A stretch of DNA of 64,000 nucleotides, taken from the NCBI RefSeq assembly GCF_024124825.1, contig NZ_JAMXSS010000002.1:3534001-3598000 (forward strand), read 5' to 3'. This document shows positions 1-25,262 of this stretch, piece after piece; position 1 is the first letter of the stretch; each line of letters begins with the position of its first letter. Made by a program: the position numbers and the translations under genes. The stretch is from Arthrobacter sp. H16F315. Lineage in GTDB: Bacteria > Actinomycetota > Actinomycetes > Actinomycetales > Micrococcaceae. A model generated the notes under the pieces. The model made no database searches. It saw only the letters and a program-made list of their open reading frames with translations, and was not told the origin of the DNA.

Positions 1-1239
1 GACCGGCGAGGCCGAAGGAGCCGGCGGAGCGCAACTGCGAGACGATCGGCACACCTTCGATGTCCCGGAACTGTGCCAGGCACTCCTGGATTTCGGCCAT
101 GTACTCGGCTTCGGTATCGGTGCTGTTGGGCTCTTCGAACTGGATCCTTGAGGGCGCGGTGCCCAGGCCGAATCGCAGGCCCAGGAAACCGGTGTGCTCG
201 GGCCGGTGGGTCCAGAGCAGCGGGCCGAGCTTGTAGATCGAGTCCACGGTGTCACTGACCGAGGGTGTTTCCTGCAGCCGAACGGAGCGTTCCACGTTCT
301 GCAGCCGGGTGGTCTCGGCCCGGAACGCCGCCATCGACTCGCGGAACTGCTTGAGCTGTTCCTTCCGTTCCCGTTTGGCCTGCAGCTTCTGGTCGACGTA
401 ATGGCCCACGATGAACAACGGCATCATCAGCATAAACACCACCGAGAGCACATTTTGGGTGACGGCAAACAGGATTCCACCCATCATCAGCGGCGCCAGC
501 AGCATGATGTACGGGAAGGCGTGGTGCTCCTGGCGCTTGGGTCCGGCCGGGAGCATCCGTTTTTGCAGTTCGAAGCGCGGCACCACCCGCGGGGAGCGGT
601 TGAAGTCGATCAACGGGGAGCTTGGCGCGGAGCTGTGCCCGGTGCCAAGGGAGACCACGGAGACGGTTGTGTCGCCAAGGGCCACCGTGTCCGAGGAGTT
701 AAGCGTTGCGCGGGTGACCGGCAGCCCGTCCATCAACAGCCCGTTGGCCGAATTTGTGTCCACAATCTCGACTGTCTCGCCGACCGTGATGCGGGCGTGC
801 CGCTTGGAAGTCAGGGGTCCGTGAGCCGGACGTCGGCGTCGCGGCCGCGGCCGAGGTAGCTGGTGCCCGAGGGCAGCGAGAATTCGCGTCCGACGTCGGG
901 TCCGGCGAGCACACGCAGCGTTGCCGCCGCCGGACCCCGGCTCGCCCCGGGCGTCCCGAACTGCTCGCTGAGCCGGGCCAGCGAGACGATGGAGCCCGGC
1001 CGCAGCCCGGATTCGAGCAGGTTGTCCCCGCGGTCCAGGACGCTGCCCTTCATGCCGCCGGCGGCGAAGGCTTCCTCGATGCTCAAGGACAGGTTCGGCG
1101 GCGGCGCAGTGCCCCGCCGGGAGGGGTCGGCCGCCCAAAGCTGGGTGGCGATGTCAGCCACGGTGGCTAGCCCGTCCACGGTGACGGCAAGGTCTTTCGC
1201 CTCGGCCGGTTCACGGCGCAGCGTCAGTCGGATTCTCAC
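1..1239 (-). CDS. FHA-FtsK/SpoIIIE (EccC-like) ATPase, N-terminal part, frameshifted
   Basis: This is the N-terminal 400 or so residues of a membrane-bound FtsK/SpoIIIE-type secretion ATPase; the gene runs off the left edge, so the ATPase domains are not visible. A GTG start at 1239 overlaps the previous stop (GTGA). Residues 1-80 look like a beta-grasp domain. An FHA domain follows (YLGRGRDADVRL, then TSKRHARI and TNSANG). Next come two close transmembrane helices (around 530-380, PYIMLLAPLMMGGILFAV and VVFMLMMPLFIVGHY) and a charged helical linker, the layout of EccC-type motors. The frame breaks at the four-base C run (plus-strand G run 814-817): one added C restores a continuous FHA core. 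Inferred role: motor of a type VII-like secretion system under phosphothreonine control. Family is fairly sure; substrate unknown. Confidence 0.75.
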
Positions 1240-1988
1240 GCTTCGTCAACTCCGTTCAGGTCATGAGCGGGCTGGCCCAGGCCGGGCCCGCCCAGCAGGT
1301 GCAGGTCCGCCGCCGTCACCAGGTGCGAGGTGATGGCATGTTCAACGAGCCGTGCGCGGCGGTTGCTCGCAAGTTTTCCGCCGCCTCCACGAAGGCCGGC
1401 GACCCCCGCTTTGTCGAGCTTGTCGCACACATTGTCCAGCTTTCTGTTGAACCGGGTCAGGGCCCAGCCCAGCGACCTGGCGGCCTCTGCCGAGGACGGG
1501 ATGGCGCTGAAGCCGGTCCCGTCGCGGCGCAGCATGGGTTCGGCGAGGGCCACGATCAGGGCCTTCTGCGAGTCGGTAAAAAGCACCGGGCCGATAGTGG
1601 TGTCTCCGCCGCTGTCCGCGTCGCGGGATTCCTGCCGAAACGCAGGCGTCCGCAGGTGGACGGCAAACTCGTAGGTGGTGGGGCCGGCGGTGAAGATGAC
1701 GTTGGTCAGGCTAAAGACCAGCGGAATCCGTGCGCCCGGCGAGAGCCAGGCCTGCATCCCGCCGGAGGCGTCAGCGATGGTGGCCGAGAGCCTGCTGCCG
1801 ACATTGTTCAGCCACCAGATGCCGTCGTAGCGGGCGATCTGCAGGAACTGCCGGTGCAGGTACGGATTGTCATCCACCTCAAGGTCGCCTTCGCGGCCGA
1901 TGCTGAAGATGTCATCGTCCGCGGGCTCATGCCACTCGCCGCAGAAATCTATCGCCAGATCCCCCATATGCCATGCCTTTCTGGACAT
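1236..1988 (-). CDS. FHA-like domain protein with C-terminal helix-turn-helix-like region
   Basis: A 250-residue cytosolic protein. Residues 25-110 resemble an FHA fold (IFSIGREGDLEVDD, then a loop and a beta-rich segment), but the usual S-x-x-H and N-G signatures are degenerate (HRQFLQI, NNVGSRL), so phosphopeptide binding is uncertain. Residues 140-235 are helical and Arg/Lys-rich (EAARSLGWALTRFNRKLDNV), resembling a winged-helix or sigma-region-4 helix-turn-helix. It lies between the kinase and the FtsK gene; its stop overlaps the FtsK start, so the two are translationally coupled. Likely an adaptor or regulator of this cluster. No enzymatic function is visible. Confidence 0.6.
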   Translation of the reverse strand: MSRKAWHMGDLAIDFCGEWHEPADDDIFSIGREGDLEVDDNPYLHRQFLQIARYDGIWWLNNVGSRLSATIADASGGMQAWLSPGARIPLVFSLTNVIFTAGPTTYEFAVHLRTPAFRQESRDADSGGDTTIGPVLFTDSQKALIVALAEPMLRRDGTGFSAIPSSAEAARSLGWALTRFNRKLDNVCDKLDKAGVAGLRGGGGKLASNRRARLVEHAITSHLVTAADLHLLGGPGLGQPAHDLNGVDEA

Positions 1989-1996
1989 TGTTGGTG

Positions 1997-3631
1997 CTAT
2001 TTGCTGACGCAGGCGATCGAATCCGGACCCAGCGGCGAAGACGCCCCGTCGGTGCGGACGATCATCACCTGAATGCAGCTGGGTTCGGCCGGGTTCGCGG
2101 CAATTTCAGCGGCCGGCCCGGCGGACGACTGGTAGTCCCCGTCACCCTTGAGAGTGTGGACCCGCCACTTGTAGCTGTCGCCGGGTTTCGGCTGCGGGTT
2201 GGTCCAGGTGAAGCTGACCTTCCCGGCCGCCCCGGCCACCCCGGCCAGCGCGGTGACGTCGGGCACTGTGCCGTTGTCCAGGGCGTCGGCGGGCGGTTTG
2301 CTGACCTGGTCGGTGGCTTTCGGAGCCGGCTCGGACCCGGTGGTTGACGCAACTATTCCGAGCACGGCGGCGGCCACCAGGACGGTGCCGCCGACAATCG
2401 AGAGCAGCAGCGTGCGTCGGCCGTGGCCGGCCGGGTGGGCCGCCGCGCCGTCGTTTGGGCCGGCCGCGGGGGCCGTGCTGGAGCGGTTGACCGTGGCCGC
2501 AAGGTCATCCTCCTCGGGGGCCGGCGCGCCTTCGGCGGCTCCGGTTCCGGGGGCTTCGAAGGCCGGCAGCGCCGGCGCGCGGTGGATGGTTGCGTTGTTG
2601 AACGTTGTTGCGTTGTCCACCGTGGAACTGGTGTCAGCGCCGCCGAACCGGGCCGGGAAGGTCGGTGTGTTGCCGGTGGCGTCCGGGTCGATCGCGGCGA
2701 CGCTGCGGACCCTGGTTTCTTCGAAGCCGTCGTCCGGATGGTTTTCTTCCGCGCGCGGTTCCTCCAGGACCTCGAACGGTGTCACGGAGAGGTTCAGCTC
2801 GGCCTGGATCCGCTGCAGGGCCAGTGCGAAGGCGTGCGCCGAGGAGTAGCGGGAGGGTGCGGCCTTGGCCATCGCCGTCGCGAGCGCCAGTTCCAGGGAT
2901 TCCGGGACATCGGCGCGGCCCAGCTTGGGCACCGGCAGGTTGGTGATCCTTGAGATCAGCTCCCGCTGGGAGTTGTCCGCCCCCGGCAGCACAAACGGGG
3001 ACCGGCCGGCCAGCAGGGTGTACAGCGTGGCGCCGAGCGCCCAGACGTCCACCAGGACCCCGTCGACATGGTGGCCGGTGAACTGCTCGGGCGGCGACCA
3101 CGGGATGGACATGCCGGCGTCCTCGTCCGAGTCTCCGGCGAGGGTTCCGGAGATCCCGAAGTCAGTCAGGGCCGGCCGGTTGTAGTCGGTGACGAGGATG
3201 TTCGCCGGCTTGATGTCGCGGTGCGCTATCCCGGCCCGGTGGGCGGTCTCGACGGCGGACGCCACCTGGATGCCAACAGCGAGTACCTCGTCCACGCTGA
3301 AGGGCTGCCGACGGTAGCGGACGTCCAGGCTGGGCCGCGAGCAGTACTCCATGGCGAGGTAGGAATGTCCGGCGTCGGTGATTTCGGCTTCGAAGATCGT
3401 CACGATGTACGGGTGCGAAGACAACTGCGCCATCAAGTTTGCTTCGGATTCGAAGCGGCGGCGGGCACCCTCGGTCTTCAGGTCCGAAAGCAGTACCTTG
3501 ACGGCCACATTGCGGCGCGGCCGCTCCTGCCCGTAGAGATAGACGTCGGAGAATCCGCCGGAGCCGAGCAGGCTGATGTAGTTGAAGCCCGGAATCACCG
3601 GCGGCGGGGCTACCGGCCGTTTGGAGCTCAC
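1997..3631 (-). CDS. Membrane Ser/Thr protein kinase (PknB-like) with extracellular FN3-like domain
   Basis: A 544-residue transmembrane Hanks-type kinase. The cytosolic kinase domain (about 15-275) has the glycine loop GSGGFSDVYLYG, catalytic Lys45, HRDIKPANIL (Asp139) and DFG (Asp157), so it should be active; the APE motif appears as SPPEQ. A Thr/Ser/Pro-rich juxtamembrane linker (275-405) is a plausible autophosphorylation region for FHA partners. One membrane helix (about 407-430, LLLSIVGGTVLVAAAVLGIV) is followed by a roughly 90-residue exterior domain resembling fibronectin type III (VSFTWTNPQPKPGDSYKWRV) instead of PASTA repeats. The GTG start overlaps the stop of the zinc-ribbon FHA gene (GTGA). 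It probably pairs with the PP2C phosphatase at 5318 and phosphorylates cluster components. Confidence 0.88.
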   Translation of the reverse strand: MSSKRPVAPPPVIPGFNYISLLGSGGFSDVYLYGQERPRRNVAVKVLLSDLKTEGARRRFESEANLMAQLSSHPYIVTIFEAEITDAGHSYLAMEYCSRPSLDVRYRRQPFSVDEVLAVGIQVASAVETAHRAGIAHRDIKPANILVTDYNRPALTDFGISGTLAGDSDEDAGMSIPWSPPEQFTGHHVDGVLVDVWALGATLYTLLAGRSPFVLPGADNSQRELISRITNLPVPKLGRADVPESLELALATAMAKAAPSRYSSAHAFALALQRIQAELNLSVTPFEVLEEPRAEENHPDDGFEETRVRSVAAIDPDATGNTPTFPARFGGADTSSTVDNATTFNNATIHRAPALPAFEAPGTGAAEGAPAPEEDDLAATVNRSSTAPAAGPNDGAAAHPAGHGRRTLLLSIVGGTVLVAAAVLGIVASTTGSEPAPKATDQVSKPPADALDNGTVPDVTALAGVAGAAGKVSFTWTNPQPKPGDSYKWRVHTLKGDGDYQSSAGPAAEIAANPAEPSCIQVMIVRTDGASSPLGPDSIACVSK

Positions 3632-5331
3632 GGGATCTCCTCAAAACGCAGCGAGATGCCGTCGCCGACCTCGGCGATGTCACCGTCCAGCACGATGGCC
3701 ATTTCGCCCTGGGCGAGCCGGCGCGGGGGTTGTCCTTCGCGGACCAGTACCGTGCCGTTGGTCGCCTTCAGGTCACACAGCATCACGTGCCAGCCTTCTA
3801 GCCGGACCTCCACATGCGAGCGGGAGATGTCTCCGCTGGGGCTCGCTACTTGAATCAGCTTGGGCATCACGGCGCCCTGGACGCGGGACACCGAAGGCTG
3901 GCGTCCCACGATGAGGGACTGGGTCAGGTCGATCAGCTCGCCGGTGGACAGGCGCATCTGGCCGAGGCGGGGCCGCCTGACCTGGACGCCGTCACCGGGC
4001 AGCGGCTGGCCGCAGCGGCCGCACTGGGCACACGTGGACGGGTTGGCGTGGCCCTGCGGGCAGACCCGGGCAAGCACCATCGGTCCGGTAGCCGGTTCCG
4101 CCGCCGCGCGCTGGGTGCTGGGCGGCTGCGGGCCGGCACCGGCGAGGTCGCCCTTGATGATGGTCTGGCCGTCGTGGTCGGCGTCCGTTTCGGTGCGGGC
4201 GGCCTGGAGCGTCGGAACGTGCTGCTGTGCCGCCGCCGGCAGGGGGACCGCCGGCAGTGGCGCAAGCGCGGGTGCCGGCGCGGGCGCCGCCGGCGAGGAA
4301 CGGTCCACGCCGGTGTGCCAGGGGACGGAATCGATCAGTCCGGTGGACAGCGGGTGCGGGGCCGCGGGTGGATCCGGGGCAGGGGCGGGAGCGGCTGCTG
4401 GTTCCGCCACCGCCGCGGCCGGTTCAGGCATCGGCCCTGGGGGCGTTTCGGCAAGATCACCGGAGAGTTCCGAGTCGGCGTCGGGGTCCTCGCGGACGGC
4501 TGCGTCTTCGATATTCCGCATCACCGTTTGTTCCCAAAGGTGATCGTAGCTGCCTGTCGGCTCCTGTTCGGCGGGCTCCGGCGCGGCGGGCTTTTGCGCT
4601 CCGGAGGCTTCCTGATCCTGTTCCGGACCTGCGGGTTCCCCGCCTGCGGCCGCCAATTCCGGTTCGGCCGGCGCTGCGGCCGCCGGTTCCGGTTCGGGTT
4701 CCGGTTCGGCCGGCGCTGCGGCCGCCGGTTCCGGTTCCGGTTCCCCGTGCAGCGTCCGCTCCAGCTCCAGGTCCTCGACGGGATATGCCAGCACGGTCTC
4801 TGCCGACGCACCGTCGGCGCCCGCCCCGGCGGCCGTCAGTGCACCCGGCAGGGCAGCCGCACGAAGGTCCATCCGCAGGCCCTTGAGCAGAACCACCCCG
4901 TCTGCCAGCGGCAGCTCCGCGGCGGCGCGGGGCGCACCTGCGGCCTCCGCACCGGGAATTCTCAGGCTGAATCCGTCGGCAGCTTCGAACCTCCGTTCGG
5001 TCCACGTGGTCACGTCTCGGCCGCTCAGTTCCACCGGGCCGCCGGGCAGCTCCACCGTCAGGTCGATCCCGCCGCGCAGGAACAACTGGAGAGAACCGGT
5101 GCCGGCCACTATCGCAAACCACGGCAGCCGGGCAAGTGACCCGCCCGAGGCCGCGGACAAGGTATCGAGGACTTCGGGCGCTTCCGGTCCGGTGCCCAGA
5201 AGTTCCCACAGCGACTCAACGAGGGCCGGTGTGCTGTCCGGGTGCAGCAGCACCACGGTTCCCGAGCGCACCACCCCGAGCCAGCTGCCCGGTGTGTAGC
5301 GCACTGCAGCGGTGGCGTTAGTGCTTGGCAT
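3628..5331 (-). CDS. FHA domain protein with zinc ribbon and Ala/Glu/Pro linker
   Basis: A 567-residue protein. The N-terminal 170 residues have no recognised family (begins MPSTNATAAVRYTPG). A long low-complexity Pro/Glu/Ala linker occupies roughly 190-400. A four-cysteine zinc ribbon (CPQGHANPSTCAQCGRCGQ) lies around residue 440, and a C-terminal FHA domain has the phosphothreonine-reading residues SRSHVE and TNGT. The ATG at 5331 was chosen because it overlaps the PP2C stop by 14 bases and begins a typical N-terminus; the longer upstream reading runs antiphase through PP2C. Inferred to be a phosphorylation-dependent scaffold for the neighbouring kinase. Confidence 0.75.
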   Translation of the reverse strand: MPSTNATAAVRYTPGSWLGVVRSGTVVLLHPDSTPALVESLWELLGTGPEAPEVLDTLSAASGGSLARLPWFAIVAGTGSLQLFLRGGIDLTVELPGGPVELSGRDVTTWTERRFEAADGFSLRIPGAEAAGAPRAAAELPLADGVVLLKGLRMDLRAAALPGALTAAGAGADGASAETVLAYPVEDLELERTLHGEPEPEPAAAAPAEPEPEPEPAAAAPAEPELAAAGGEPAGPEQDQEASGAQKPAAPEPAEQEPTGSYDHLWEQTVMRNIEDAAVREDPDADSELSGDLAETPPGPMPEPAAAVAEPAAAPAPAPDPPAAPHPLSTGLIDSVPWHTGVDRSSPAAPAPAPALAPLPAVPLPAAAQQHVPTLQAARTETDADHDGQTIIKGDLAGAGPQPPSTQRAAAEPATGPMVLARVCPQGHANPSTCAQCGRCGQPLPGDGVQVRRPRLGQMRLSTGELIDLTQSLIVGRQPSVSRVQGAVMPKLIQVASPSGDISRSHVEVRLEGWHVMLCDLKATNGTVLVREGQPPRRLAQGEMAIVLDGDIAEVGDGISLRFEEIP

Positions 5332-6312
5332 CGTTGGGGTCCTTGCCCGGTCCACCAACAGCCGGTCCACCAACAGCGGGTCCATCAACAGCCGGTCCAT
5401 CAACAGCATGTCGCTCAACAGCATGTTCGCGCGCATCGGCCCTGGGCAGGGTGTCCTCGTCTTCCGCTGCGGACGCACTGCGCGGCGCTGTCCGGACGAC
5501 GCCGTCGTCGTTGCTGACATCGGTGGCGTCCAGCACAATGCAGGTGACGTTGTCCCTGCCGCCGCTGCGCAGGGCCGCCTGGATGAGCTCATCCACGGCT
5601 GCCTGCGGGTCCGCCCGGGAGCGCAGGATACTGCCGATGTGCTCGTCGTCGAGTTCGCCATTGAGCCCGTCGGAACAGACCAGGATGCGGTCGCCTTCCT
5701 CAATCGGCAGCAGCCAGTAGTCGGCTTCGATTTCGTCGCCGGTGCCCAAGGCCCGGGTGACAACGTGCCGGCGCGGATGCACGGCGGCCTGCGCCGGGCT
5801 GATCTGCCCGGCATCAACAAGTTCCTGGACTTCGGAATGGTCCACGCTGACCTGGCTTAGTTGGCCCTGACTGAGCCGGTAGGTCCGGGAGTCACCGATG
5901 TTCAGGACCAGCCAGTAAGGCACGCCCGTCTGCTCCACCACCACAACCCCGGAAAGTGTGGTCCCGGCGCGGGAACCGGTGGCTTCCCGGATGCTTTCGT
6001 CGGCCAGCAGCAGGTATTCCTGCACAACGCCGGCGGTGGCGTCACGCCCGCCGCTCGCCAGCTGCGGGATCCGGGCGAGGGTGCGGACGCAGATGCCGCT
6101 GGCGATTTCGCCGGCCTCGTGCCCGCCCATGCCGTCCGCGACGGCGAAGACGGGATCGGCGGCGATGTAGGAATCCTCGTTCATCTCGCGCCGCAGGCCC
6201 CGGTCCGTGCCGTAGCCGCAGCTCAGCCGGAGTCCGGAGGTACCGCTGGGGGCCCGTCGGGGGCGGTGCCTGGGGTGGCTGGGGAGGGAACGGCGGCCGG
6301 CTGGGGAATCAT
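5318..6312 (-). CDS. PP2C-family Ser/Thr protein phosphatase (PrpC/PstP-like), N-terminal frameshift
   Basis: A metal-dependent protein phosphatase that reverses the kinase at 1997-3631. PP2C signatures are complete: RREMNEDS, VADGMGGHEAGE, CSDGLNGELDDE and GGRDNVTCIVLD carry the metal-binding aspartates. No membrane helix is seen. The expected start is the ATG at 6312, overlapping the preceding TGA (ATGA) and opening a Pro/Ala-rich leader, but that frame hits TGA near 6224. The frame entering the catalytic domain (LSCGYGTDRGLRRE) has no start before its own stop. One missing base near 6225-6235 joins them into about 331 residues. The in-frame ATG at 6184 would delete the first core beta strand, so it is probably not the natural start. 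Confidence 0.85.
5349..5423. repeat. 15-bp tandem repeat, five copies, in PP2C C-terminus
   Basis: Five consecutive copies of a 15-bp unit (plus strand GGTCCACCAACAGCC and variants) lie near the 3' end of the phosphatase gene, just before the overlap with the FHA gene. On the coding strand they give a repeating pentapeptide of the type VDGPA/VGGPA. The last copy is degenerate. It is an in-frame, length-variable spacer with no catalytic role apparent. Confidence 0.85.
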
Positions 6313-7784
6313 GCCTGTCCTAGGTAGAAGGAGCGGTCACCGAAGTGCACGGTGGAACCTGGGCGGACGTGGGTGGGTACCCCCGCCGCGAGGACGGCAT
6401 GGGTACCGTCCGGGATGCTGACGGCGCTGCCGTTGGTGGAGTTGCGGTCTGTCACCCAGACGCCCCCGTTTCCGGCGTGCAGATGGAGGTGGGTCTTGGA
6501 AATGGAACGCCCGGGATCGGCGACCGGGATAAGCTGCACCGGCCCCTCGCCGGGGTGCCCGGCGGGGTTCCGGCCGACCAGCACCGTGCGGTCCAGCTCA
6601 ATCTCACGGCCGTCATCAAGCCGGATCCGGAGCATCGCCACGGTGATCGGGGCCTGCGTGTCGCGGACCTGGGTACGGTCGTGGTCCTCGTCGGGGTGCG
6701 CGGCCGGCAGGACGCTTGCGACGGCGGCCTCCGGTGCTGGGCCGGGCCGCGGTGCTGGCCCGGGCTGATGGGCTGGCCCGGGCTGCGGCCCGAGCACCGG
6801 CGGCTGCCATTGGCCGGCGGCGGGCGCCGCGGCTGCGGCCGGGGCGGACGCGGGCGCTGCGGCCGGGGCGGACGCGGGCGCTGCGGCCGGGGCGGACGCG
6901 GGCGGCGCGGCGGCCATGGCTCCGGCCAACGGCGAAGCGACCTGCCGGACCGCTGGAAGGTCAAGGGGCGCGAAGCTGTACGGGCCCTGGATCCCACCGG
7001 TCGTGATCGGGTTGCGTCCGGCCTTTACATCGAAGACCAAGGTCTTCGCGGCAGCGTCGTGCCAGCCGCGGAGCTTCCCGTTCCGATCCCACGAGCTCGA
7101 CAGGACCACCAGGACAGCCCAGGCAGCGCCGAGGAACACGAGGGGCCCCAGCACCACCAGGGCCACAGCAAACCACTGGAAAATCACCACGGCAGCCGCA
7201 GCGATCACGGCGAGCAGCATACCGGCCCCGGTGATAAGGCCACGCAGGAACACCGCTCCCCCGCCCGGCGCGAAACCGTCGGCGTCCGAGCTGCGGATGC
7301 CCATCAGGCTGTTGCCGGCCGTCACGCCGGAACGGCCTTCAAGCACGGCAAGGACCACTGTGTAGATCAGGGTGAGGCCTGCACCAATGCCGCCGAACAG
7401 CACCAGGGACGAGGTGTTGTACACGATGAAGCCGCCGCTCTGGCTCCGGGTGATACCGGCCAGCCCGATGGCCAGCAGCACAGTCAGGATGGTCACCGGC
7501 GCCAGCCAGTCCAGCACTGCCGCACCCAGCCGTTTTCCGGCAGCGGCGGGTACCAGCTCCAGCTTGTGTGGCACCGCAGGACCTCCCCCTTGTCCGCGGG
7601 CCGGGGCGGGGCCCTGCGTTACGGGGATCCTACCGGGGATCCCGTGCGCATGCGAAGGCTCCCGTAAGTTGTGGGCGTTCCGCGCGGAACGGTTGCTCAG
7701 CGGCGTCCCGCAGGCGGTACAAAAGGCAGCCCCCGGCCGGAGCGGCTGTTGGCAGCGCGGGCAGCGTTCGACGTCGTCGGTCAT
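6309..7784 (-). CDS. Zinc-ribbon, RDD-family membrane, FHA domain protein
   Basis: A 491-residue integral membrane adaptor. The N-terminus is a double-CxxC zinc ribbon (CPRCQQPLRPGAAFCTACG). Residues 75-260 hold an RDD-family membrane region with several hydrophobic helices (LGAAVLDWLAPVTILTVLLA and three to four more). A long Ala/Pro/Gly linker, partly encoded by a 24-bp tandem repeat, leads to a C-terminal FHA domain (VLVGRNPAG, SKTHLHLH, STNGS). The start at 7784 lies inside the end of the TgpA gene (4-base overlap) and its stop overlaps the PP2C start. Probably a membrane docking point that reads phosphothreonines made by the cluster kinase. Confidence 0.8.
   Translation of the reverse strand: MTDDVERCPRCQQPLRPGAAFCTACGTPLSNRSARNAHNLREPSHAHGIPGRIPVTQGPAPARGQGGGPAVPHKLELVPAAAGKRLGAAVLDWLAPVTILTVLLAIGLAGITRSQSGGFIVYNTSSLVLFGGIGAGLTLIYTVVLAVLEGRSGVTAGNSLMGIRSSDADGFAPGGGAVFLRGLITGAGMLLAVIAAAAVVIFQWFAVALVVLGPLVFLGAAWAVLVVLSSSWDRNGKLRGWHDAAAKTLVFDVKAGRNPITTGGIQGPYSFAPLDLPAVRQVASPLAGAMAAAPPASAPAAAPASAPAAAPASAPAAAAAPAAGQWQPPVLGPQPGPAHQPGPAPRPGPAPEAAVASVLPAAHPDEDHDRTQVRDTQAPITVAMLRIRLDDGREIELDRTVLVGRNPAGHPGEGPVQLIPVADPGRSISKTHLHLHAGNGGVWVTDRNSTNGSAVSIPDGTHAVLAAGVPTHVRPGSTVHFGDRSFYLGQA
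6832..6903. repeat. 24-bp tandem repeat, three exact copies
   Basis: Three perfect copies of a 24-bp unit (plus strand begins GCTGCGGCCGGGGCGGACGC) lie in the linker of the RDD-FHA gene. They encode an eight-residue Ala/Pro/Ser repeat (APASAPAA type). Such exact units usually vary in number between strains. Confidence 0.85.
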
Positions 7785-11716: not shown

Positions 11717-12691
11717 CTACAGCGCGGCGGCGCGTTGCTGCGGTGCGGCAACTTCGCCCAGTACCCGGGCCAGGACGGCCTCGGGGCTGGCGCCGGAGAA
11801 TTCGGCTTCCGGGTCCATGACCAGGCGGTGGGTCCAGACGACGGCGGCCAGGTCCTTGACGTCGTCCGGGAGCACGAAGTTCCGGCCCTGGCTGGCGGCC
11901 CAGACTTTTGCGGCACGGACCATGGCGAGGGCACCGCGGACGGAAACGCCGAGGCGGGTTTCCGGGGCGTTGCGGGTTTCCTCGCAGAGCCGGGAGATGT
12001 ACTCCAGCACGGCGGTGTCCACGTGGGTGGTGGCGGCAAGGTCCGCCATGTCCGCGATCGCCTGGGTGGTGATGATGGCGGTCATTCCCTTGGACCGGTC
12101 CTTCAGGTTGGCGCCGCCGAGCAACTGCACCGTGGAGGCGTGGTCCGGGTAACCGATGGAGGTCTTGATCAGGAAGCGGTCCAGCTGGGCCTCCGGCAGC
12201 CGGTAGGTGCCGGCTTGTTCAATCGGGTTCTGGGTGGCCATCACCATAAACGGCCGTCCCGCCTCGTAGGTGGTGCCGTCCACCGTGACACGGGATTCTT
12301 CCATCACCTCAAGCAGCGCCGACTGCGTCTTGGGCGAGGCCCGGTTGATTTCATCGGCCAGCACGATGTTGTTGAAGATCGGTCCCTTGTGGAACTCGAA
12401 CTTCTGCGTCTTCTGGTCATAGATGGTCACGCCTGTGACGTCCGAGGGCAGCAGGTCGGGGGTGAACTGGATGCGGTTGTTGGAGCCCTGCACGGTGGCC
12501 GCAAGGGCGCGTGCCAGCGAGGTTTTGCCGGTCCCCGGGGCGTCTTCGAAGAGGACATGCCCCTCGGCCAGCATCGCGGTAAAAGTCAACCGGATGACGT
12601 GGGCCTTGCCCAGGACGGCCTGGCCGACGTTCGCGACGAGCTTTTCGAAGGTGCCGGAAAACCATTCGGCCTGTTCGGTGGTCATGGTCAT
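11717..12691 (-). CDS. MoxR-family AAA+ ATPase
   Basis: A 324-residue cytosolic AAA+ ATPase. Walker A is seen as APGTGKTSLARA, Walker B as VLADEINRASPKTQ, sensor 1 as MATQNPIEQAG, and the C-terminal lid contains the arginine-rich VSVRGALAMVRAAKVW. MoxR ATPases remodel or activate VWA and DUF58 partners, and the next gene is DUF58. It begins 91 bases after the FN3-A stop and belongs to the same minus-strand transcription unit. Length and motifs are standard for the family. Confidence 0.93.
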   Translation of the reverse strand: MTMTTEQAEWFSGTFEKLVANVGQAVLGKAHVIRLTFTAMLAEGHVLFEDAPGTGKTSLARALAATVQGSNNRIQFTPDLLPSDVTGVTIYDQKTQKFEFHKGPIFNNIVLADEINRASPKTQSALLEVMEESRVTVDGTTYEAGRPFMVMATQNPIEQAGTYRLPEAQLDRFLIKTSIGYPDHASTVQLLGGANLKDRSKGMTAIITTQAIADMADLAATTHVDTAVLEYISRLCEETRNAPETRLGVSVRGALAMVRAAKVWAASQGRNFVLPDDVKDLAAVVWTHRLVMDPEAEFSGASPEAVLARVLGEVAAPQQRAAAL

Positions 12692-15700: not shown

Positions 15701-18700
15701 CCGCCACCGAGTAGCGCACGTTGACGGTGCCTTCCCCGCCGGGTGCAAGCAGGATGATGCGGGAGCTCTGCTTGCTGACGGTCGCCTGCAGCTCCGGGGC
15801 GGCCTCGATGCCGTCGCCGGCGATGCGGATGGGGTCGCCGTCGGGATCGGTATCGTTGCGCATGGCGTCCACCGCGATCTGCCGCCCGGGCCGGACCTTG
15901 ACCTCGTCATCGACAGGGGTCGGCTTTTGGTTGGTGTCACCGCGCGGGGCGATGCCGACGGTCACGGTGCCGGTGTTGATGGCTCCCTGCCGGTCCACGA
16001 CTTTGTAGCGGAAACTGTCCGTTCCGGCGCCGTCCCCGGCTGCCGTGAAGTCAATGAAATTGCTGCCCGCTGTGGCTGTGCCCATGGCGGGGGTGCTGTC
16101 GATGCCGGTCAGCTGGACCGAGTCGCCGTCGGGGTCGATCCCGTCGAGTTCCACCGGGATCCGCACGGACCCGGCCGCCACGACGCGGGCGGTGAGGTTT
16201 TTCGGCTGCGGCCGGGTGTTTTGGGCGCCGTCGAGCGGCAGGATGTGGATGGTGACGGCAGCGGCGCTCTTTTGGCCCTGCGGGTCCACGGCGTTATAGA
16301 TGGCGCGGACCGTCTTGGGCTCGGCGCCGGCGACGAAGCGCAGCGTGTTTTCGGAGATAAAACTCTTGCCGTCGGCCGACGGGACGGGCTGAGGGAGCAC
16401 CGGGTCCACGCTCAGCTTTTCGCCCTGCGGGTGCGTGTCGTTGGCCAGCACCGGGATGGTGACAACGTCGTTGACCCGCACGTTCACTTCGTCCGGTTTG
16501 GGCTGGGGGGCCTCGACGACGGCGGGGGCCGGGACCGGGACCACGGCGACGCTGCCCGTGGCCGACCTGGTGCCGTTGGACATCGTGTAACGGAAGGTAA
16601 AGGGTTCCTTGGTGCCCACGACGTCCGTGATCCGCAGCATGCTGTGATCGATCACACTGACAGAGGCTGTCGTGTTCTCCGGCAGCTGGACGGACTGCAG
16701 CACCAGCACTCCCCGGACGGGTCCGAGTCATTGGCCAGCGGGTCCAGGAGCACACTGCCGCCGACCGGCAGCAGCGCGACGTCGTGGACGGCCACCGGCT
16801 TGCCGGAGTCCTTGCCGGTTTCAACGTCTACACGAATCAGGCCCTGGCTGCTCTGCGGGCCGTTGCTGGCAATGTACGTCAGGTAAACCGGTCCTGGGGT
16901 GTCGCTGCGGAAGGTGAAAGTGCCACCGTCCGTCACGGGTCCCAGCTGGGCGGTTCCGGCGCCTTCCACCTGGGCGAGGCGCAGGGCACCGCCGTTGGGG
17001 TCGACGTCGTTTTTCAGCGGCGCGATCAGAAGGTCCTGGCCGACGACGGCGGTGACGTGGTCCGCGTTGACCACCGGCTGCAGGGCGCCGGGGGCTGGAC
17101 GTTGACGATCACTTTGGCCGTGGTGGTGGCGCGCCCGTCCCAGATGGACACTGTGACGGATTTTTTGCCGGGCGCGGCGCCGGAGTCCTGGTACGTGAGC
17201 AGGCCGTCGCGGCGGACCTTGACCTGGTCCTGTTCGTTGTCCGCCTTGGCGTCCATCAGCACCAGGTCATCGCCGTCTGGATCTGTCCAGTCGGTGAGGA
17301 TGTTCTGGCTGACGGTTTTGCCCTGCTCCACCAGCATGGTGGTGGGGTCTCCGCGTTTGAACAAGGGCGGCCTGTTCTCGTCCGGGCCCACGACGCTGAG
17401 GGGTGATGCTGCCGGCGGCGGAGAGACCGCGGCCGTCTGCGGCGCTGTAGCCGAACGTTTCGGTGCCCGGTTTCGCGTCGGCCGGCACTGTGACCTGGAA
17501 AGCTGTGCCGCCGTAGATGTTCTCGAGGCCGCCGGAGGTGGGGCCTTTGTCGCCCACGGAGGCCGTGAGGATGTCGCCGTCGGGGTCGGAATCGTTATCG
17601 AGTACGGACAGGACTGTGGTGCGGCCCGGACGGACGCCGACGGCGTCCGGCTTGGTTTCCGGCGGCCGGTTGGGTTTGGTGCGGTCCGGCAGGATATTGA
17701 TGGTGTTGTTGTCCGCCGACTCCTGGTCCTGGTCATCGGACTGGTTCTTGGGCGGGATGACGTCGTCCCAGTTGTTGACCAGCTGCATGTTCTGGTTCAC
17801 CAGCCACACATTGCCCGAATTCACATCGTTCAGGACCACCAAATCCCGGTTCACCCGGAACACATACGACGGCGAAGCACTCGCCTTCGGCACATCCACG
17901 CTCTTGTCATCGGCATCATTAACACACTCACGGACATACTTATTCGCCCCCGACCACGCCGCATGAATGCACCCAGCAAGCTGCACCGGCGCCGCCGGCA
18001 CACCCTGCCCGCCAAAGGTGACAGTCTTCGCCGTCGACCCGTCCAGCGGCTGTTTCAGCAACGCCTTCGGCGTGGCAATGGCGACCGAGTCCGCCGCCGG
18101 ACCCGAAAGCTGCAACTTCGCATCCCGTGCCTGCTCCAACGCCAACTCACGCCCGCCCGGCAGGAACAACTTCCCCCGCCCCGCGTCCAGGACCACCGGC
18201 GCATCCCCCACCACGCTCAGTTGCAGGTCCCCCGCACCCTTGAGCCCGTCCCAGACGCTGACGCTCGAGTGCTCCACCGTGCCCTCAGCATCCACCGAGG
18301 TCACCGTCACCTGACCGGTCTTCGGATCCGCACTGTAAATCCGGTCATCGGAACCCACCGCAGAGACCGTCCCGGCCGAACCGGCCAGCACCGGCTCGGA
18401 CTCCTCAGCATCAAACCCATTCACCGTCGAGGGCGACAACGCCCACACCGTACCCTTCGCCGGATCCGTCACGGCAATAACCGTCGAACCAAAACTCACC
18501 GCCGCCGAACCCGGCAACTTCTTATCCCCACCCAACCGCATCTGCGCCGCCGACACCTGATTCAACGTCGAACCCGCACTATCATCAACAAACACAGTCC
18601 CGGCATCCTGCAACACATCAAAAGTCGAACTCGCCGGCGTCACCGCACCATCCAAAACCCGGGACGGATAATTCAACCGACCCACCGCATTCTTCGACTT

Positions 18701-18928
18701 CGACACCACCCACACCCCGCCATCGTTCAACTGAACCTCAGCGGTCTTAAACCCCGGATAAATGATGGCAGCAGCAACCAGGACCGCCGCAGCAGACACA
18801 ATAGCGCCACCAGCAATAAGCTTCTTGCGCCGTGCGTTGGACCCAGGATGGTCGGATCGCGGCTTCGTTGATCCGGGTTTCTTGGATCCCGGCATTTTGG
18901 ATTCCAGCGTGGCGAGCAGACGTGTCAC
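12783..18928 (-). CDS. Giant surface protein A: membrane anchor, propeller-like, cadherin/Ig-like and FN3 repeats (three frameshifts)
   Basis: About 2,050 residues once repaired. The GTG start at 18928 has a GAAGGA box 8 bases upstream. An Arg/Lys-rich cytosolic tail and one membrane helix (GAIVSAAAVLVAAAIIY) lead to a roughly 340-residue beta-rich ectodomain resembling a beta-propeller. Many cadherin/Ig-like repeats follow, each with a VLxNDxDPxGD-type calcium motif, then about three FN3 domains and a Cys-rich end (final residue Cys). The frame is broken by an extra base at the G run 17400-17403 and missing bases at the G run 17090-17094 and the C run 16711-16714. Paralog B supplies the expected reading each time. 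Probably the adhesive or sensing surface component of the cluster. Confidence 0.85.
17751..18769. repeat. Direct repeat copy 1 (1,019 bp), nearly identical to 24099-25118
   Basis: This stretch of surface gene A, from just after the membrane helix to just before the first Ig-like repeat, matches 24099-25118 with only two differences seen by eye: a silent G/C change at 18473 versus 24821, and one A fewer in the run near 18749. Sequence on either side is clearly diverged. Codon choice here (many GAT, GGT, TTG, TCG, AGT) differs from the surrounding GAC/GGC/CTG-rich genes. It looks like recent gene conversion or duplication of one module. Confidence 0.9.
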
Positions 18929-19003
18929 AGCTCAGATTCCTTCAAGATTGCGTTGTGGTTCCCCGGCAGGCCCGAGACAGGGCCGCGCACTTCCCGCCAC
19001 AGC

Positions 19004-22000
19004 CTACCCAATGATCCGGCGGCATGCGATGGGGAGGACTGCCCGTCGAGCGGTTCCCGGCCCGGGCCGGCGGCTATGGTGTTGCTCCGACCGGGAAGGT
19101 GCACAGCGGAACGCCGCTCTGCCCGGGGGTCCGATCGTCGTGTGCCGCGAATCGATCCAGCGCGTCTGGTTCGGCGAACCGCGCATGATGTAATACCACT
19201 CACCGTTCCCGCTGTACGGGGTGCCGTGCGGCTTCCAGCACATGATGTCGAAGACGTCGGTGTTTCCCATCCACGGCCGGTCGGAGTTGCTCTGGCCGTC
19301 GCAGGTCCTCTTGACCGAATCGTAGGACGTCGCGCCGGGCAGGTCGGTACAGCTGCGGAGCATGCCGCCATTGAGCCTGGTGGTCCAGCGGGTCTTCTCG
19401 GTCCCGGACCGGGCCGAGGCCGACGCGATCGGACCGCCGGTACCGACTGAGTTGACGGTCTGGACCTGGATCTGGTGCGGTTCACTGAAGCCGCCGGTGT
19501 TGATGGTCCGGCTGCCCGAGGCGGAGACCCGTTCCCAGCCTCCGTTGTCGATCTTGATCTGGGTGTAGGCGACGTCGTTGCCCGTTGTGGACGGCGAGCT
19601 CCAATTGAAGCTGAGGTTCTTCTGGTTCTCGGCGCCGTTCTGCCCGGACGCCGCGGGCGTTCCGGGTGCGCCGTACGGTGTGGCGGTGGCCCCGGTACTC
19701 GCGTCGGAGCTCGGCGCGACGGACGAGTTGGCCGTCACGGTAATGGTGCCGGCCTGGCCGTTGGTGAAGCCGCCGACCTTCTGGCCCGGCGTCACTGCCC
19801 CGGTCTTTCCGCTGGGGCTCGCGTAGTACGTGTAGCTGACCTCGCCGGGCTGGGAGCCGTTGCGCCCGGCCGCGTCGAGTTCGCGGAAGTTGATGACTAC
19901 GGCCCGGCCCGCGCCGCCGGTGTCCGCCGGCGTGGCGCTCACGCCGGAGACCGGGCTGAGCTTGCCGGTGGCGCGGCGCGGTGCCGAGGCCGCACTGACC
20001 GCGCCTTTACCCGCTTTGTTCTCGGCCTGGACCGTGAAGGTGTAGCCGGCCTCGGAGTTGTTCGCGGTGAAGTTGGCGGTCCGCACCGTTCCGGCGACCA
20101 GCTGGGTCTGGGTGGTGCCGCCGCCGCCGCTCATGGTGACGTAGTAGTTCTTGATGGCGTCGCCGTTGGTGTTCGGCTCGGTCCAGTTCACCTTCAGCTG
20201 GTTGGAGCTCCCGACGGCGGATGCCACAGCCGTCGTCGGGGCTGCCGGGGCGGCCGGCACGCCGGCGGGGTTGTCTTCGGCGGAGTAGAGGCCCCACTCG
20301 GAGGGGCCGAGTTCGTTGACGGCCTGGGCGCGGACCTTGTACCGCACGCCGTTGGTCAGCCCGGGCCAGGTGTAGCCGAGGCCGGCAACACCGTTTTTCA
20401 CGGCGATTCCGCTGGCTGGCGGCGGGGAGATCTCCAGGTTGTAGTTCTTGACGGCCGAGCCCTCGGACTTGGCCGCGGGCCAGCTGATAACCATGTTCTT
20501 GTCCCCGGCTTTGACCGTGGGGGCCTCCGGCGGCGAGGGCTTCTCGTCCGGCCTGACCTCGTTGGAGGCCGGCGAGGGCACGGACTCCCCCACCTCGTTG
20601 GTGGCGGATACGGTGAAGACGTACTTAACGTCGTTGGTCAGTCCGCTGAGTGTGCAGGTGGTGGTCGGGCACTCCTGGCTGAAGCCGTTACTGGAGCGCA
20701 CCGTGTATTTGCTGATGGTGGCACCATTGTCCGATGGCGGCGCCCACTTGAGCACAGCTGTCCGGCTGCGCACGTCGGTGGCGGCCGGCGCCGAGGGGGC
20801 ATCCGGCTTGTCCCGGACCGTGATCCGGACCCGGCCATCTGTCTGCCGGGACACGTCGTTGGTTTTGTCCATCACGGTGTAGCGCAGCACCAGCACGCCC
20901 TTGAAGCCGGCGGCCGGGGTGAGCGTGATCGAGTCCCCGGCAACGACTGGCTGTCCGGCGGCGGAGCCGGTTTCCACAGTGGCGGCGACAATCTTCAGCG
21001 GGGTGTCGCTGAAGGGGTTGAAGTCGTTTGCGAGCACGTTGATGGTCTCGGTCTTGCCGGCGTTGGCTTTCTCGATGACGTCCTCGTTTGCGACCGGCAG
21101 CGGGCGGTTGGAGGCCACAACGGTCGCCGTGATGCTTGCTTTGACCGGCTCGGAGCGGCCATCGGTGACCTTGACCGGGATGCTGCCCTTCCAGCCGGCG
21201 GCCTTGGCGGAGTCTGCGGTGACCTTCAGGGTCCCGCCATCCACAGAAGCCTTGAAGCCTTCGGGCAGGGTGCCGTCGAGTTCGAACGTGAGCTTCTCCT
21301 GGTCCCCGGAGTCAACGTCCTTGGCCAGGTTGCCCAGCTCCAGGCTCGCGGACTCGGCCTTGGGCACCTCCAGGGTGGCTCCGCTGAAGCTCGGCTGGTG
21401 GTTGGCGTTCGGATCGGGAATCACCGTGGTGATGATGCTGAGGGTGGATTTGAGGCCCTGCGGATCGTCCGGTCCGGTGCCGTCGGTGACTTCGAAGGTG
21501 ACGGAGCCGGGGCCCACATAGTCCTTGAGCGCGGCGTAGCGCAGCGCGGTGCCGTTGCCTGCCACGATGTTCTGCGGGTCAGCGCCCTGCACGCGGACGT
21601 TGTCCAGCTGGGTGATCCGGGGTGCGCGGCCCTCCCGGACCCGGACGTAGTCGTTCAGGTCCAGGTCGATTTGCTTGCCGGCCATCACTTCGACGACGTC
21701 GGTTTTGGCTAGCGTGGGGTGCTGTTCGCCCTGGCCGGGGACCCAAATGACCGCCGTCGCGCTTTGGCCGTCGACGTCGGTGACGGTGTAAGGGACCAGC
21801 TGGTCCTTCGGCGCGAGGGCCACCCGGACACTGCCGTCGCCCACCCGGGCGTTCGGGTTGCCGTCGGGCAGGCTGATCTTGAGGTCGGACCCGACGCCGT
21901 CGGGATCCGAGTCGTTCTTCAGGACGGGGACGTCGACGGCGGACTTGCCAAGTGTTTCAGCGGGGGTCACCACGTCGTCCCTCGCGATGGGCAGTTTCAG

Positions 22001-25000
22001 GGCGGCGTCCGGGCTGACCCGGACCCGGATGACGGCGCTGCCCTGGGCTTTTTTGTCGTCCTGGATCTTGTAGCTGACGCTCTCGTTGCCGGCGGCGCCG
22101 GGGGCAGTGAGGAGCACCTTGCCACCCTCGGCCGCTTCGACCGCGAGTTCGCCGCGGGCCTCAAACCCGTTGCCGACCAGGCTGATCGGGTCCCCGTCCG
22201 GGTCCGAATCGTTCTGGAGGGCCTCGACGGCGATCTTGCGGCCGGGCCGGACGTCCACCCCGTCATCGACGGCGATGGGCTTCTGGTTGTTTGCCTCCTG
22301 CGGCGCGATGCCGATGATGACGGTGCCGGTGTTTTCGGCGCCGATCCGGTCCCGGACGCGGTAGCTGAAGGTGTCTGTTCCGGCGGCATTGCCGGCCGCG
22401 GTGAATTCGAGGTAGCCGTCCTTGACCACGGCTGTTCCCATGGCGGGGGCCTTCTCCACGCCGGTCAGCTGGACGGAGTCGCCGTCGGCATCAACACCGT
22501 CGAGCGGCACGGGGATCCGGACGGTCATCCCTGCCACCACGCGGGCCGTGAGGTTCTTCGGCTCGGGGCGGGTGTTCCGCTCGTCGTCGCGGCCCCGGAC
22601 CCGGATGGTGACCTGCTGGGAGTCCGACTGCCCGGAGGCGTTGGTGACCTTGTAGATCGCGTAGACGGTCTTCGGAACTTCGCCGGCAATGAAGCGCAGG
22701 GAGTTGCCGGCGGTGAAGATGCGGCCGTCCGCGGCATCCGGCTGTTGCGCGAGCACCGGTTCCAGGGTGAGTTTTCCGCCGTTGGGGTCGGTGTCGTTCG
22801 CCAGGACCGGGATGGTCACGACGTCCCCGGCCCGCACGGTCGCTTCGTCCGGTTTCGCCTGCGGGGCCTGGAGCTTGGTCGGGGCCGGGACCACCAGCAC
22901 GGCGATCTCCCCGCTGGCGGAGGATTTGCCGTTGGAGATGGTGTACGTGACGTTGAGCTGGCCCTGTGCGCGGATGTCGGTGATCCGGACAACGGAGTGG
23001 TCCAGCACGGCAACGTTCACGGGCAGGCCGTCTGCCGCGGTCACGGATTGCACCACCAGCACACCGCCCGAGGGATCGGAGTCGTTGCCGAGGACATCCA
23101 CCAGGACGCTGCCGCCGCTGGGCAGCAGGGCGGTGTCGCGGACGGCCACGGGGGCGCCGTCTCCGCCGCCGGGGACCACATCGACGCGGACCAGCTGCTG
23201 GGCACTGGCCGGGCCGTTGGTCACGAGGTAGGTGACGTAGTGGGCGGACTGGGCGGTGGAATTGAAGGTAAAGGTCTGCTGGTCAGCCCCCATCGTGGCC
23301 GTCGAGTTGCCGTCCGGGCTGACCTGGGCGAGGCGGAGCGCGCCGCCCTGGGGGTCCGAGTCGTTTTTCAGCGGAGCAATCAGGGTGTCCACGCCGGCGA
23401 CGGCGACCACGTGGTCCGCGTTGGCGATCGGCGGGAGGGCGCCGGCCGCACGGACGTCGACGGTGATCTTCCCTTCGGTACTGGACCGGCCGTCGGAGAC
23501 CGTGACGGTGACGGTCTTGCGTCCCGGCTCAGCACCGGCGTCCTGGAAGCTCAGCAGGCCGTCCGGACGGGCCTTGACCTGGTCCCGGGGGTCGCTGCTG
23601 GTGGCGCTGACGACATAGAGGTCATCACCGTCGGGGTCGATCCAGTCGGGGAGGATGTTCTGGCTGACGATTTTGCCGGACTGTACCACCAGGGCGGTGT
23701 TCCGGTTGGTTTTCTGGCGCGGGGCGGAATTCTCCCCGGCAGGGATGACTGTGAGTGTAACGTCGGCCGCGGCGGAGAGCCCGCGGCCATCGTCTGCCGT
23801 GTATTTGAACGTTTCCGAGCCGGTCCGGTCTGCCGGCACGCTGACCTGGAATCCGGTCGATCCGTAGATCGGGGCCAGGAGCCCGGATCTGATCGGATCC
23901 GGTGCCCGGACGGTGAGGATGTCGCCGTCGGGGTCGGAATCGTTATCCAGTACCGGGAGGATGGTGGTCTTGCCGGCACGCACCCCAAAGCTGTCCGGTT
24001 TGGCCGCGGGGGCACTGTTGGGTTTGGTGCGGTCCGGGAGCACTGTCTGCTGGACTTCGTCGGCGGAGTCTTTGTCGGCGTCGTCGGAAGTCTGCTGCGG
24101 CGGGATGACGTCGTCCCAGTTGTTGACCAGCTGCATGTTCTGGTTCACCAGCCACACATTGCCCGAATTCACATCGTTCAGGACCACCAAATCCCGGTTC
24201 ACCCGGAACACATACGACGGCGAAGCACTCGCCTTCGGCACATCCACGCTCTTGTCATCGGCATCATTAACACACTCACGGACATACTTATTCGCCCCCG
24301 ACCACGCCGCATGAATGCACCCAGCAAGCTGCACCGGCGCCGCCGGCACACCCTGCCCGCCAAAGGTGACAGTCTTCGCCGTCGACCCGTCCAGCGGCTG
24401 TTTCAGCAACGCCTTCGGCGTGGCAATGGCGACCGAGTCCGCCGCCGGACCCGAAAGCTGCAACTTCGCATCCCGTGCCTGCTCCAACGCCAACTCACGC
24501 CCGCCCGGCAGGAACAACTTCCCCCGCCCCGCGTCCAGGACCACCGGCGCATCCCCCACCACGCTCAGTTGCAGGTCCCCCGCACCCTTGAGCCCGTCCC
24601 AGACGCTGACGCTCGAGTGCTCCACCGTGCCCTCAGCATCCACCGAGGTCACCGTCACCTGACCGGTCTTCGGATCCGCACTGTAAATCCGGTCATCGGA
24701 ACCCACCGCAGAGACCGTCCCGGCCGAACCGGCCAGCACCGGCTCGGACTCCTCAGCATCAAACCCATTCACCGTCGAGGGCGACAACGCCCACACCGTA
24801 CCCTTCGCCGGATCCGTCACCGCAATAACCGTCGAACCAAAACTCACCGCCGCCGAACCCGGCAACTTCTTATCCCCACCCAACCGCATCTGCGCCGCCG
24901 ACACCTGATTCAACGTCGAACCCGCACTATCATCAACAAACACAGTCCCGGCATCCTGCAACACATCAAAAGTCGAACTCGCCGGCGTCACCGCACCATC

Positions 25001-25262
25001 CAAAACCCGGGACGGATAATTCAACCGACCCACCGCATTCTTCGACTTCGACACCACCCACACCCCGCCATCGTTCAACTGAACCTCAGCGGTCTTAAAA
25101 CCCCGGATAAATGATGGCCCCCGTGATCAGCACGGCGGAGGCAACAGCGAGGCCGGTGCCGGCCATAACACGGCGCCGGCGGGCGGCGAAGGGGCCGCTC
25201 AGCGGTCGCGGCGAACCGTGCCGGCGGGTTTTTGGCCGCAGGGCGTCAAGGAAGGTCTTCAT
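19004..25262 (-). CDS. Giant surface protein B: paralog of A (frameshift near the N-terminus, possible one at the C-terminus)
   Basis: About 2,080 residues once repaired. The ATG at 25262 begins an Arg-rich tail and a membrane helix (VMAGTGLAVASAVLITGAII), the same layout as protein A. One extra base in the A run 25097-25100 breaks the frame just after the helix; paralog A has three A's there. The propeller-like module, about a dozen VLxNDxDPxGD-type cadherin/Ig-like repeats and three FN3 domains follow. The last 25 codons are atypical: adding one base near 19112-19118 would end the protein at the TAG at 19074 with a Cys-containing tail like that of A. It is the first gene of the cluster and probably makes a surface pair with A. 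Confidence 0.83.
24099..25118. repeat. Direct repeat copy 2 (1,020 bp), nearly identical to 17751-18769
   Basis: Second copy of the module, at the matching position in surface gene B. It carries the extra A in the run 25097-25100 that breaks the frame. Identity begins exactly at the codons following the membrane helix and ends at the codons for DDVIPP, so the exchanged unit matches a protein domain. Confidence 0.9.

Follow-up and report, generated by a model that had tools for sequence, protein, structure and literature searches.

The window considered here is a 64,000-nucleotide stretch from Arthrobacter sp. H16F315 of the family Micrococcaceae (G000:C2:3534001-3598000; C2 coordinates below refer to this same genome), and its positions 1-25262 hold a run of 11 genes, all on the minus strand, as delimited by codon-position guanine-cytosine (GC) gene calling and Pfam. 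In order of transcription their products are two giant immunoglobulin-like (Ig)/fibronectin type III (FN3) proteins, a MoxR ATPase, a DUF58 protein, a TgpA-like protein, a zinc-ribbon/RDD/FHA protein, a PP2C phosphatase, an FHA protein, a Ser/Thr kinase, a protein with FHA and helix-turn-helix-like (HTH) parts, and an FtsK-type motor that bears on type VII secretion systems (T7SSs). The first-pass annotation of the stretch recognized in this set the PFNA cluster of bifidobacteria, and the resemblance stands, with the core gene types on one strand.

The two giants, protein 1 at 19004..25262 and protein 2 at 12783..18928, are tandem paralogues (12783-25262) with near-identical N-terminal domains. 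Protein 1 has a short cytoplasmic tail, a transmembrane (TM) anchor, an N-terminal repeat domain that by eye is propeller-like, then Big_9 and fn3 stretches (11 and 3, respectively, within 19004-25078) and a C-terminal domain that contains Cys; protein 2 has seven Big_9 and three fn3 stretches in 12783-16709. In both the N-terminal membrane anchor is discerned by eye, and no C-terminal TM was noticed. The C-terminal part of a second giant copy lies upstream in 35 of 69 relatives that have an intact giant with at least 900 bases before it, or in 39 of 80 by a looser count. An adenylate/guanylate cyclase-like gene (25427-26560) adjoins the giants on their upstream side and is read from the same strand.

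Following the giants come MoxR, an AAA+ ATPase (11717..12691; AAA_3 PF07726, E=6.8e-63), the DUF58 protein (10336..11667; PF01882, E=3.8e-13) and the TgpA-like membrane protein with its transglutaminase-like core (7781..10339; TgpA_N PF11992 and Transglut_core PF01841). The signalling part consists of the zinc-ribbon, RDD membrane and FHA protein (6309..7784; Pfam), the PP2C phosphatase (5318..6312, with its body at 6184-5318 and its N-terminal part in another frame), an FHA protein in which a Pro/Ala-rich linker leads to a C-terminal FHA domain (3628..5331; E=0.001, just under the cut-off), and the Ser/Thr kinase with a TM segment and an extracellular C-terminal domain (1997..3631; Pkinase, E=1.9e-39). 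Lys, HRD and DFG motifs of the kinase are present by eye, and comparison of the kinase with viral contigs found no relative. The Pfam scan returned nothing for the next gene (1236..1988); an AlphaFold model (mean predicted local distance difference test score, pLDDT, 59) and Foldseek give its product an FHA fold at the N-terminus (best E 5.4e-4) and a helical, HTH-like C-terminal half, with a weak match to EspM in the same FHA region. EspM is a regulator of ESX-1. The N-terminal part of the motor, comprising a ubiquitin-like (Ubl) domain, an FHA domain and the start of the membrane region, occupies 1..1239, and the rest lies left of the window. That all the named genes share one strand, as the first-pass annotation had it, is right, the strand being the minus one, with the qualification that the motor's ATPase domains lie outside the window and that several genes are frame-broken. 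Its description of overlapping stops and starts fits five junctions (DUF58/TgpA, TgpA/RDD, PP2C/FHA, FHA/kinase and FHA-HTH/FtsK), but not MoxR/DUF58 and kinase/FHA-HTH, where there are short gaps.

Giant 2 is split over three frames (18928-17267, 17074-16652 and 16709-12783), about 55 N-terminal codons of giant 1 are out of frame with its body (the break is near 25060-25100), the N-terminus of PP2C is out of frame with its body (6184-6312), and the motor frame breaks between about 820 and 1138. In 72 of 80 Arthrobacter-group relatives the giant is a single frame of 1,904-2,231 amino acids (aa); of the eight exceptions six begin near a contig end, one is a 5.7 kb fragment (L158) and one is without an FN3 match (L166). 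The Ubl-FHA start of the motor is open in 76 of the 80. Because giant and motor are open in most relatives, and because ligA to the left of the window is split as well (L013:8374-10670), the frame breaks in the window are likely to be assembly indels.

The motor's ATPase domains extend for about 3.2 kb left of position 1, down to G000:C2:3530795, and with them the protein matches FtsK_SpoIIIE (E=1.1e-52) in addition to FHA. Two orthologues were scanned and both fit EssC (TIGR03928) best, with 528 and 517 bits over some 1,000 residues; the full-length relative from L029, of 1,490 aa, scores 528 bits against EssC, 334 against EccCa and 277 against EccCb. Its residues 1-90 are modelled as a beta-grasp fold (block pLDDT 66-88, whole-model mean 61.9), which Foldseek matches to ubiquitin, SUMO and further beta-grasp folds (E 8.6e-4 at best), and an FHA domain follows (PF00498, E=7.2e-12). 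A motor model, A1, was built from 17 of 20 motor frames, eight of the 17 being from genomes of the family and three of the 20 having been dropped for start calls that were too long. Among the 17 aligned motors neither the Arg, Ser, His and Asn-Gly residues of the FHA domain nor the first P-loop varies, and by its conserved residues that domain is predicted to be competent to bind phosphothreonine. That the protein could instead be a DNA translocase or conjugation motor, as its FtsK_SpoIIIE domain and weak matches to FtsK and TraB models might suggest, is scarcely credible: the EssC and EccC models fit it far better (528 and 334 bits for the L029 protein, against 51 for FtsK), its architecture includes FHA and Ubl domains, and it is paired with WXG100 proteins. 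The same evidence, namely EssC as best model, the Ubl and FHA domains and the WXG100 pairing, bears out the type VII nature initially attributed to it; judged by its sequence the motor is of the type VII kind, with Ubl, phosphothreonine-competent FHA and EssC/EccC-like ATPase parts. The genome encodes another FHA-FtsK protein, some 1,400 aa long, at C2:1982887 (L015), with no cluster or WXG100 match beside it.

The gene order is well conserved. It had been held that an order not kept in relatives would count against a single machine; all ten gene types occur in the window's order at 75 of 80 Arthrobacter-group loci, and the other five loci, three of them on short contigs, are without some of the genes and none has a different order. 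Farther afield, 60 neighbourhoods of TgpA-positive genomes were compared, picked by hand at one or two per genus rather than at random; three are from outside the order and four (L038, L068, L086 and L087) are shorter than 20 kb. MoxR-DUF58-TgpA occur in this order in all 60, and in 58 an FN3-type match lies upstream of them. A motor on the same strand, with 43% identity or more, is present in 21, and a distant T7SS-like ATPase match (25-34%) in seven more (L031, L037, L048, L063, L075, L083 and L086); the three of these seven that were scored are EccCa above cut-off, and in L075 EccB and EccD likewise pass their cut-offs. There is variety in the arrangement. In five loci (L050, L055, L068, L078 and L087) the motor comes straight after TgpA with no kinase genes, in L201 the order is FHA-kinase-FHA-HTH-FN3-MoxR-DUF58-TgpA-motor-WXG100s, divergent motors (33%) lie near MoxR-DUF58(-TgpA) in L204 and L205, and in L202 and L203 motor and FHA-HTH occur but the TgpA part is missing. 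Unlinked motors in L191, L194 and L196 keep an RDD-FHA-like gene upstream, and by eye helical-hairpin genes are nearby. Chance as the origin of the neighbourhood is ruled out by the conserved order, together with the co-occurrence of cluster, motor and WXG100 proteins set out below.

TgpA orthologues (at least 198 bits) mark the cluster in 70 of 149 genomes of the family; the next scores down are 185 bits, for one fragment from a genome that is among the 70 anyway, and 82 bits. At 1e-3 any TgpA match is found in 111 of the 149, so paralogues are common in the remainder. In the order 171 of 297 genomes, from 53 of 94 genera, have a TgpA match (E<=1e-30), and in the phylum 16 of 396 (E<=1e-25). 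Model A2 draws on 18 of 60 TgpA pieces and A4 on 17 of 76, and adjacency counts from the TgpA searches of family and order, and from the family search with the WXG100 model A6 described below, are lower bounds.

The Ubl-FHA motor is present in 35 of the 149 family genomes, every one of them among the 70 with the TgpA cluster, and the T7SSa motor EccCa (TIGR03924, E<=1e-125) in 42, of which 41 are above cut-off; the window genome has no EccCa at that threshold. Of the 70 cluster genomes, 35 have the Ubl-FHA motor only, 31 EccCa only, none both and four neither, while the 79 cluster-negative genomes include 11 with EccCa and none with the Ubl-FHA motor (cluster against either motor 66/4/11/68; Fisher 2.8e-25 over the 149 genomes). 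Genus labels cover 136 of the 149, the other 13 being without a TgpA match. Cluster and motor come and go together in nine of the ten variable genera, with a within-genus product of 7e-11 over the ten; the tenth, g32, includes two genomes in which EccCa occurs but the cluster does not. Genome size was considered as a cause and rejected, the means for these ten genera being 3.94 Mb (33 TgpA-positive genomes) and 3.83 Mb (27 negative). In the 31 genomes EccCa lies within 20.5 kb of the cluster in seven, farther away on the same contig in eight and on another contig in 16, and for those eight a shared island or linkage cannot therefore be the explanation. Across the order a TgpA match accompanies the motor in 83 of 91 genomes.

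That in the sampled family the cluster, made up of giant Ig/FN3, MoxR, DUF58 and TgpA-like genes and usually also those for RDD-FHA, PP2C, FHA, kinase and FHA-HTH, occurs almost only with one or the other of two motors suggests that it belongs to protein secretion. It might instead be a sensing and adhesion cluster working alone, as proposed for bifidobacteria, with the motor no more than a frequent neighbour. Half of the cluster-bearing genomes of the family (35 of 70) do lack this motor; LigA comes directly after FHA-HTH in L041, and after one gene in L032 and L035; and the published account, in the parts available, gives FN3 adhesion and TNF-alpha binding and lists no motor (PMC8430577). 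However, 31 of the 35 motor-less cluster genomes have the other T7SS motor, none sampled has both, and different T7SS motor lineages adjoin FN3-MoxR-DUF58-TgpA, so that a self-standing cluster is doubtful.

The motor has a partner of its own. Of 15 small proteins beside motors or cluster, 13 match the WXG100 family (PF06013) at E<=0.05; one of the 15 is from L086, a locus with a short motor match only. Eight of the 15, collected in A3, made the WXG100 model A6, the others being of other helical-hairpin types or weaker, and two of the eight sequences are from genomes of the family in which A6 then finds a match. A6 finds matches in 31 of the 149 family genomes (E<=1e-8), namely all 30 with a cluster-linked motor and G144 (Fisher 1e-30), so that it is found in one of the 119 without such a motor. 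No more than 1 kb separates an A6-type WXG100 gene from the motor in 18 of the 35 motor genomes of the family and in at least 30 of 42 genomes of the order outside it (motor at least 1,894 bits), and 52 of 65 A6-positive genomes in the order have the motor. In the window's genus a WXG100 gene adjoins the motor in one of eight genomes. An EccC/EssC-type ATPase and a WXG100 partner, the general marks of a T7SS, are thus both present as far as sequence can tell.

In the window genome the A6-type protein is encoded at C2:958814, and a frame of 364 aa at C2:1628898 is WXG-fused. The best PF06013 match in the genome, at C2:244346, was considered as partner and set aside, as by eye no T7SS gene lies in its 3.3 kb surroundings and A6 points to C2:958814 instead. 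Twenty A6 loci, chosen towards long frames, were inspected by eye, and 17 are WXG domains fused to longer proteins and three small, numbers that are on this account no rate. The fused genes (L170:3571-4665 and 16 more in L171-L188) have C-termini that are lipase-like, DUF2515 or of no known type. Six of the products were scanned: five match WXG100 weakly, two lipase/hydrolase models and two DUF2515, with all but one of these matches below curated cut-offs. By eye a gene with a lipoprotein-like signal follows eight of the 17, and such pairs are possible effector-immunity pairs for competition among bacteria. In a genome from outside the taxonomic class, near a PFNA-like cluster, L088:1684-2820 has a weak WXG-like N-terminus fused to an alpha/beta hydrolase.

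The originally suggested role of the motor was to display or secrete the giants, and it is one that we consider very improbable. Giants and motor do share an operon. Against export of the giants stand their own N-terminal anchor, seen by eye, the absence of this motor from 35 of the 70 cluster-bearing genomes of the family, the persistence of FN3-type genes beside MoxR-DUF58-TgpA in genomes without it, and the way that the occurrence of WXG100-type proteins follows that of the motor. The 11 motor-less genomes that were fetched keep the cluster, giants included (L031, L032, L034-L039, L041, L048; L036 is divergent). As substrates of the motor, WXG100 and WXG-fused proteins from genes at other places are likelier.

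The genes left of the motor encode an ArsD-like protein, a low-molecular-weight phosphatase, a pyridine-nucleotide reductase and DNA ligase. It was on this side that WXG100 and EccB/D-like genes were to be looked for, and among the genes scanned there no WXG100, EccB or EccD was found, the WXG100 gene of this genome being the distant one at C2:958814. The ArsD-like, phosphatase and reductase genes (L013:10849-12754) resemble a small arsenic-resistance group. On the other side of the cluster ARAGORN calls a tRNA-Cys (anticodon aca) at 32770-32860, inside a long open reading frame (31185-32942), which is probably false.

Bifidobacterial PFNA clusters, as far as the published descriptions available go, have five core genes (pkb2, fn3, aaa-atp/MoxR, duf58 and tgm) in fixed order with pkb2 first, and immune sensing is their proposed role (PMC8430577, PMC6803598); the cluster has been called unique to bifidobacteria (PMC8430577). 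The window shares with these descriptions kinase, FN3, MoxR, DUF58, transglutaminase-like, PP2C and FHA genes on one strand, and the FN3-MoxR-DUF58-TgpA order. It departs from them in that its kinase is downstream of tgpA, so that the pkb2-first order is absent, whereas L201 is kinase-first as published, and in adding RDD-FHA, FHA-HTH, a second giant and the T7SS motor. By gene content and order PFNA-like clusters are not confined to bifidobacteria but are found in several families of the order. A resemblance of the mycobacterial moxR1 operon to PFNA was already noted in a 2025 review (PMC12067865). In the parts of that review at hand MoxR is beside DUF58 there too, but a giant FN3 protein, a kinase and a T7SS motor are not named as parts, the comparison being by description only. 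In the literature covered, with subscription papers and preprints outside its scope, no link of PFNA or MoxR-DUF58-TgpA with T7SS was found in the portions of text available.

Among T7SSs, Garrett et al. 2024 define T7SSc-j, and the available text names only T7SSa and T7SSd for Actinomycetota (PMC11217815). The actinobacterial T7SSd, according to the same text, has WXG100, an FHA-ATPase, a kinase, a one-TM protein, TsdH, and a 1,654-residue Ig-like protein, with no ubiquitin-like protein; the large Ig-like TsdI has a Sec signal and a C-terminal TM (PMC11217815). The present cluster could be seen as an instance of the T7SSd published from Olsenella and Bifidobacterium, as the kinds of parts are the same (WXG100, FHA-motor, membrane kinase and Ig giant; PMC11217815, as described in the parts at hand). 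We regard this as improbable: T7SSd is described there without a ubiquitin-like protein and here a Ubl domain is fused to the motor, the giants here are N-terminally anchored with no C-terminal TM noticed, and MoxR, DUF58 and transglutaminase are absent from the main text of PMC11217815, as are the words fibronectin and Arthrobacter. No TsdH was seen in the cluster, with no profile search aimed at it. With both T7SSd and T7SSe, to go by those descriptions, the shared features are an FHA-ATPase with phosphothreonine residues, a membrane kinase, WXG100 and a large Ig-like envelope protein, and with T7SSe also a PPM phosphatase and an FHA protein; the Ubl-motor fusion, the MoxR-DUF58-TgpA module, RDD-FHA and FHA-HTH set the present system apart. 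By its predicted parts it is a T7SS variant related to T7SSd/e that departs from the former in having a ubiquitin-like domain.

T7SSb comprises EssC, the pseudokinase EssB, a separate EsaB, EsaA and EssA. It shares with the cluster an FHA-EssC-type ATPase, a Ubl element, a membrane protein of kinase fold and, by analogy, a large envelope protein, but here the kinase looks active by its motifs, Ubl is fused, and the motor has a single FHA with phosphothreonine residues. Such residues are lost in the FHA of EssC, according to the part of PMC11217815 available. As for T7SSa/ESX-4, an EccC-type motor lies beside PFNA-like clusters of other genera or elsewhere in the same genomes, but those EccC proteins show no FHA domain in their matches, and of the T7SSa set EccB, EccD and mycosin are absent among the genes scanned left of the window's motor, no genome-wide search having been made for them.

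Taken together, the PFNA-like cluster is probably the envelope and phosphosignalling module of type VII secretion with interchangeable motors, and probably not a device for export of the giants. A broader and more tentative proposal is that PFNA-type clusters, the bifidobacterial included, are an envelope-spanning, phosphothreonine-switched control module of actinobacterial T7SS with an exchangeable motor, and that they represent a new subtype whose kinase is active, in contrast to EssB, the pseudokinase of T7SSb. The module would be conserved and the motor either the Ubl-FHA-EssC fusion of the same operon, in some genera, or an ESX-4-like EccC, in others, never both in the family sampled. On the first and narrower reading, the outer domain of the kinase would sense a signal from the envelope; FHA domains in the motor, in the RDD membrane protein and in the soluble FHA protein would read the resulting phosphothreonines and gate assembly; PP2C would reset that gating; and FHA-HTH would link phosphorylation state to transcription. 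MoxR and DUF58 may serve as remodelling chaperone and adaptor, the TgpA-like enzyme would act outside the membrane, and the anchored giants may be a wall-spanning scaffold or conduit, by analogy with the published TsdI and EsaA. WXG100 proteins and WXG-fused effectors would leave the cell through the motor, perhaps to serve in competition with other bacteria. A phospho-regulated machine, as had been surmised at the outset, is plausible in light of the kinase motifs seen by eye, PP2C, the FHA readers and the phosphothreonine residues kept in the motor FHA.

Several observations weigh against this interpretation. The path from kinase to export is one that we infer from the gene set. In the 31 genomes with cluster and EccCa the distance between the two is short in seven and, with the two on different contigs, unknown in 16; four cluster genomes, of genus g10 and with divergent TgpA, have neither motor; 11 EccCa genomes are without the cluster, one of which, G065, has a partial match under cut-off; and 88 of 171 TgpA-positive genomes of the order are without the motor at E<=1e-250, the EccCa survey having covered the family. 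Related genomes and sister species are not independent, so that the co-occurrence statistics are guides, and family members were among the sequences behind A1 and A6. The WXG100 pairing has its gaps, with no A6 match in the five family genomes whose motor is unlinked, 13 of 65 A6-positive genomes of the order without the motor, nine of 47 linked motors without an A6 match, and 2.6 Mb between WXG100 and motor in the window genome. The EssC score of the L029 motor, 528 bits, is under the curated 778, its EccCa and EccCb scores are under their cut-offs also, and confidence in the structure models is modest (mean pLDDT 62 for the motor and 59 for FHA-HTH).

PFNA clusters have been considered as host-immune sensors of bifidobacteria. 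The occurrence of such clusters in Arthrobacter-group bacteria and other families of the order, together with a motor for secretion, suggests that they function in type VII secretion and makes this testable. If correct, the proposal would bring the Actinomycetota a phospho-regulated subtype of T7SS, and would give the EssB pseudokinase and the FHA domains of EssC a natural counterpart with an active kinase.

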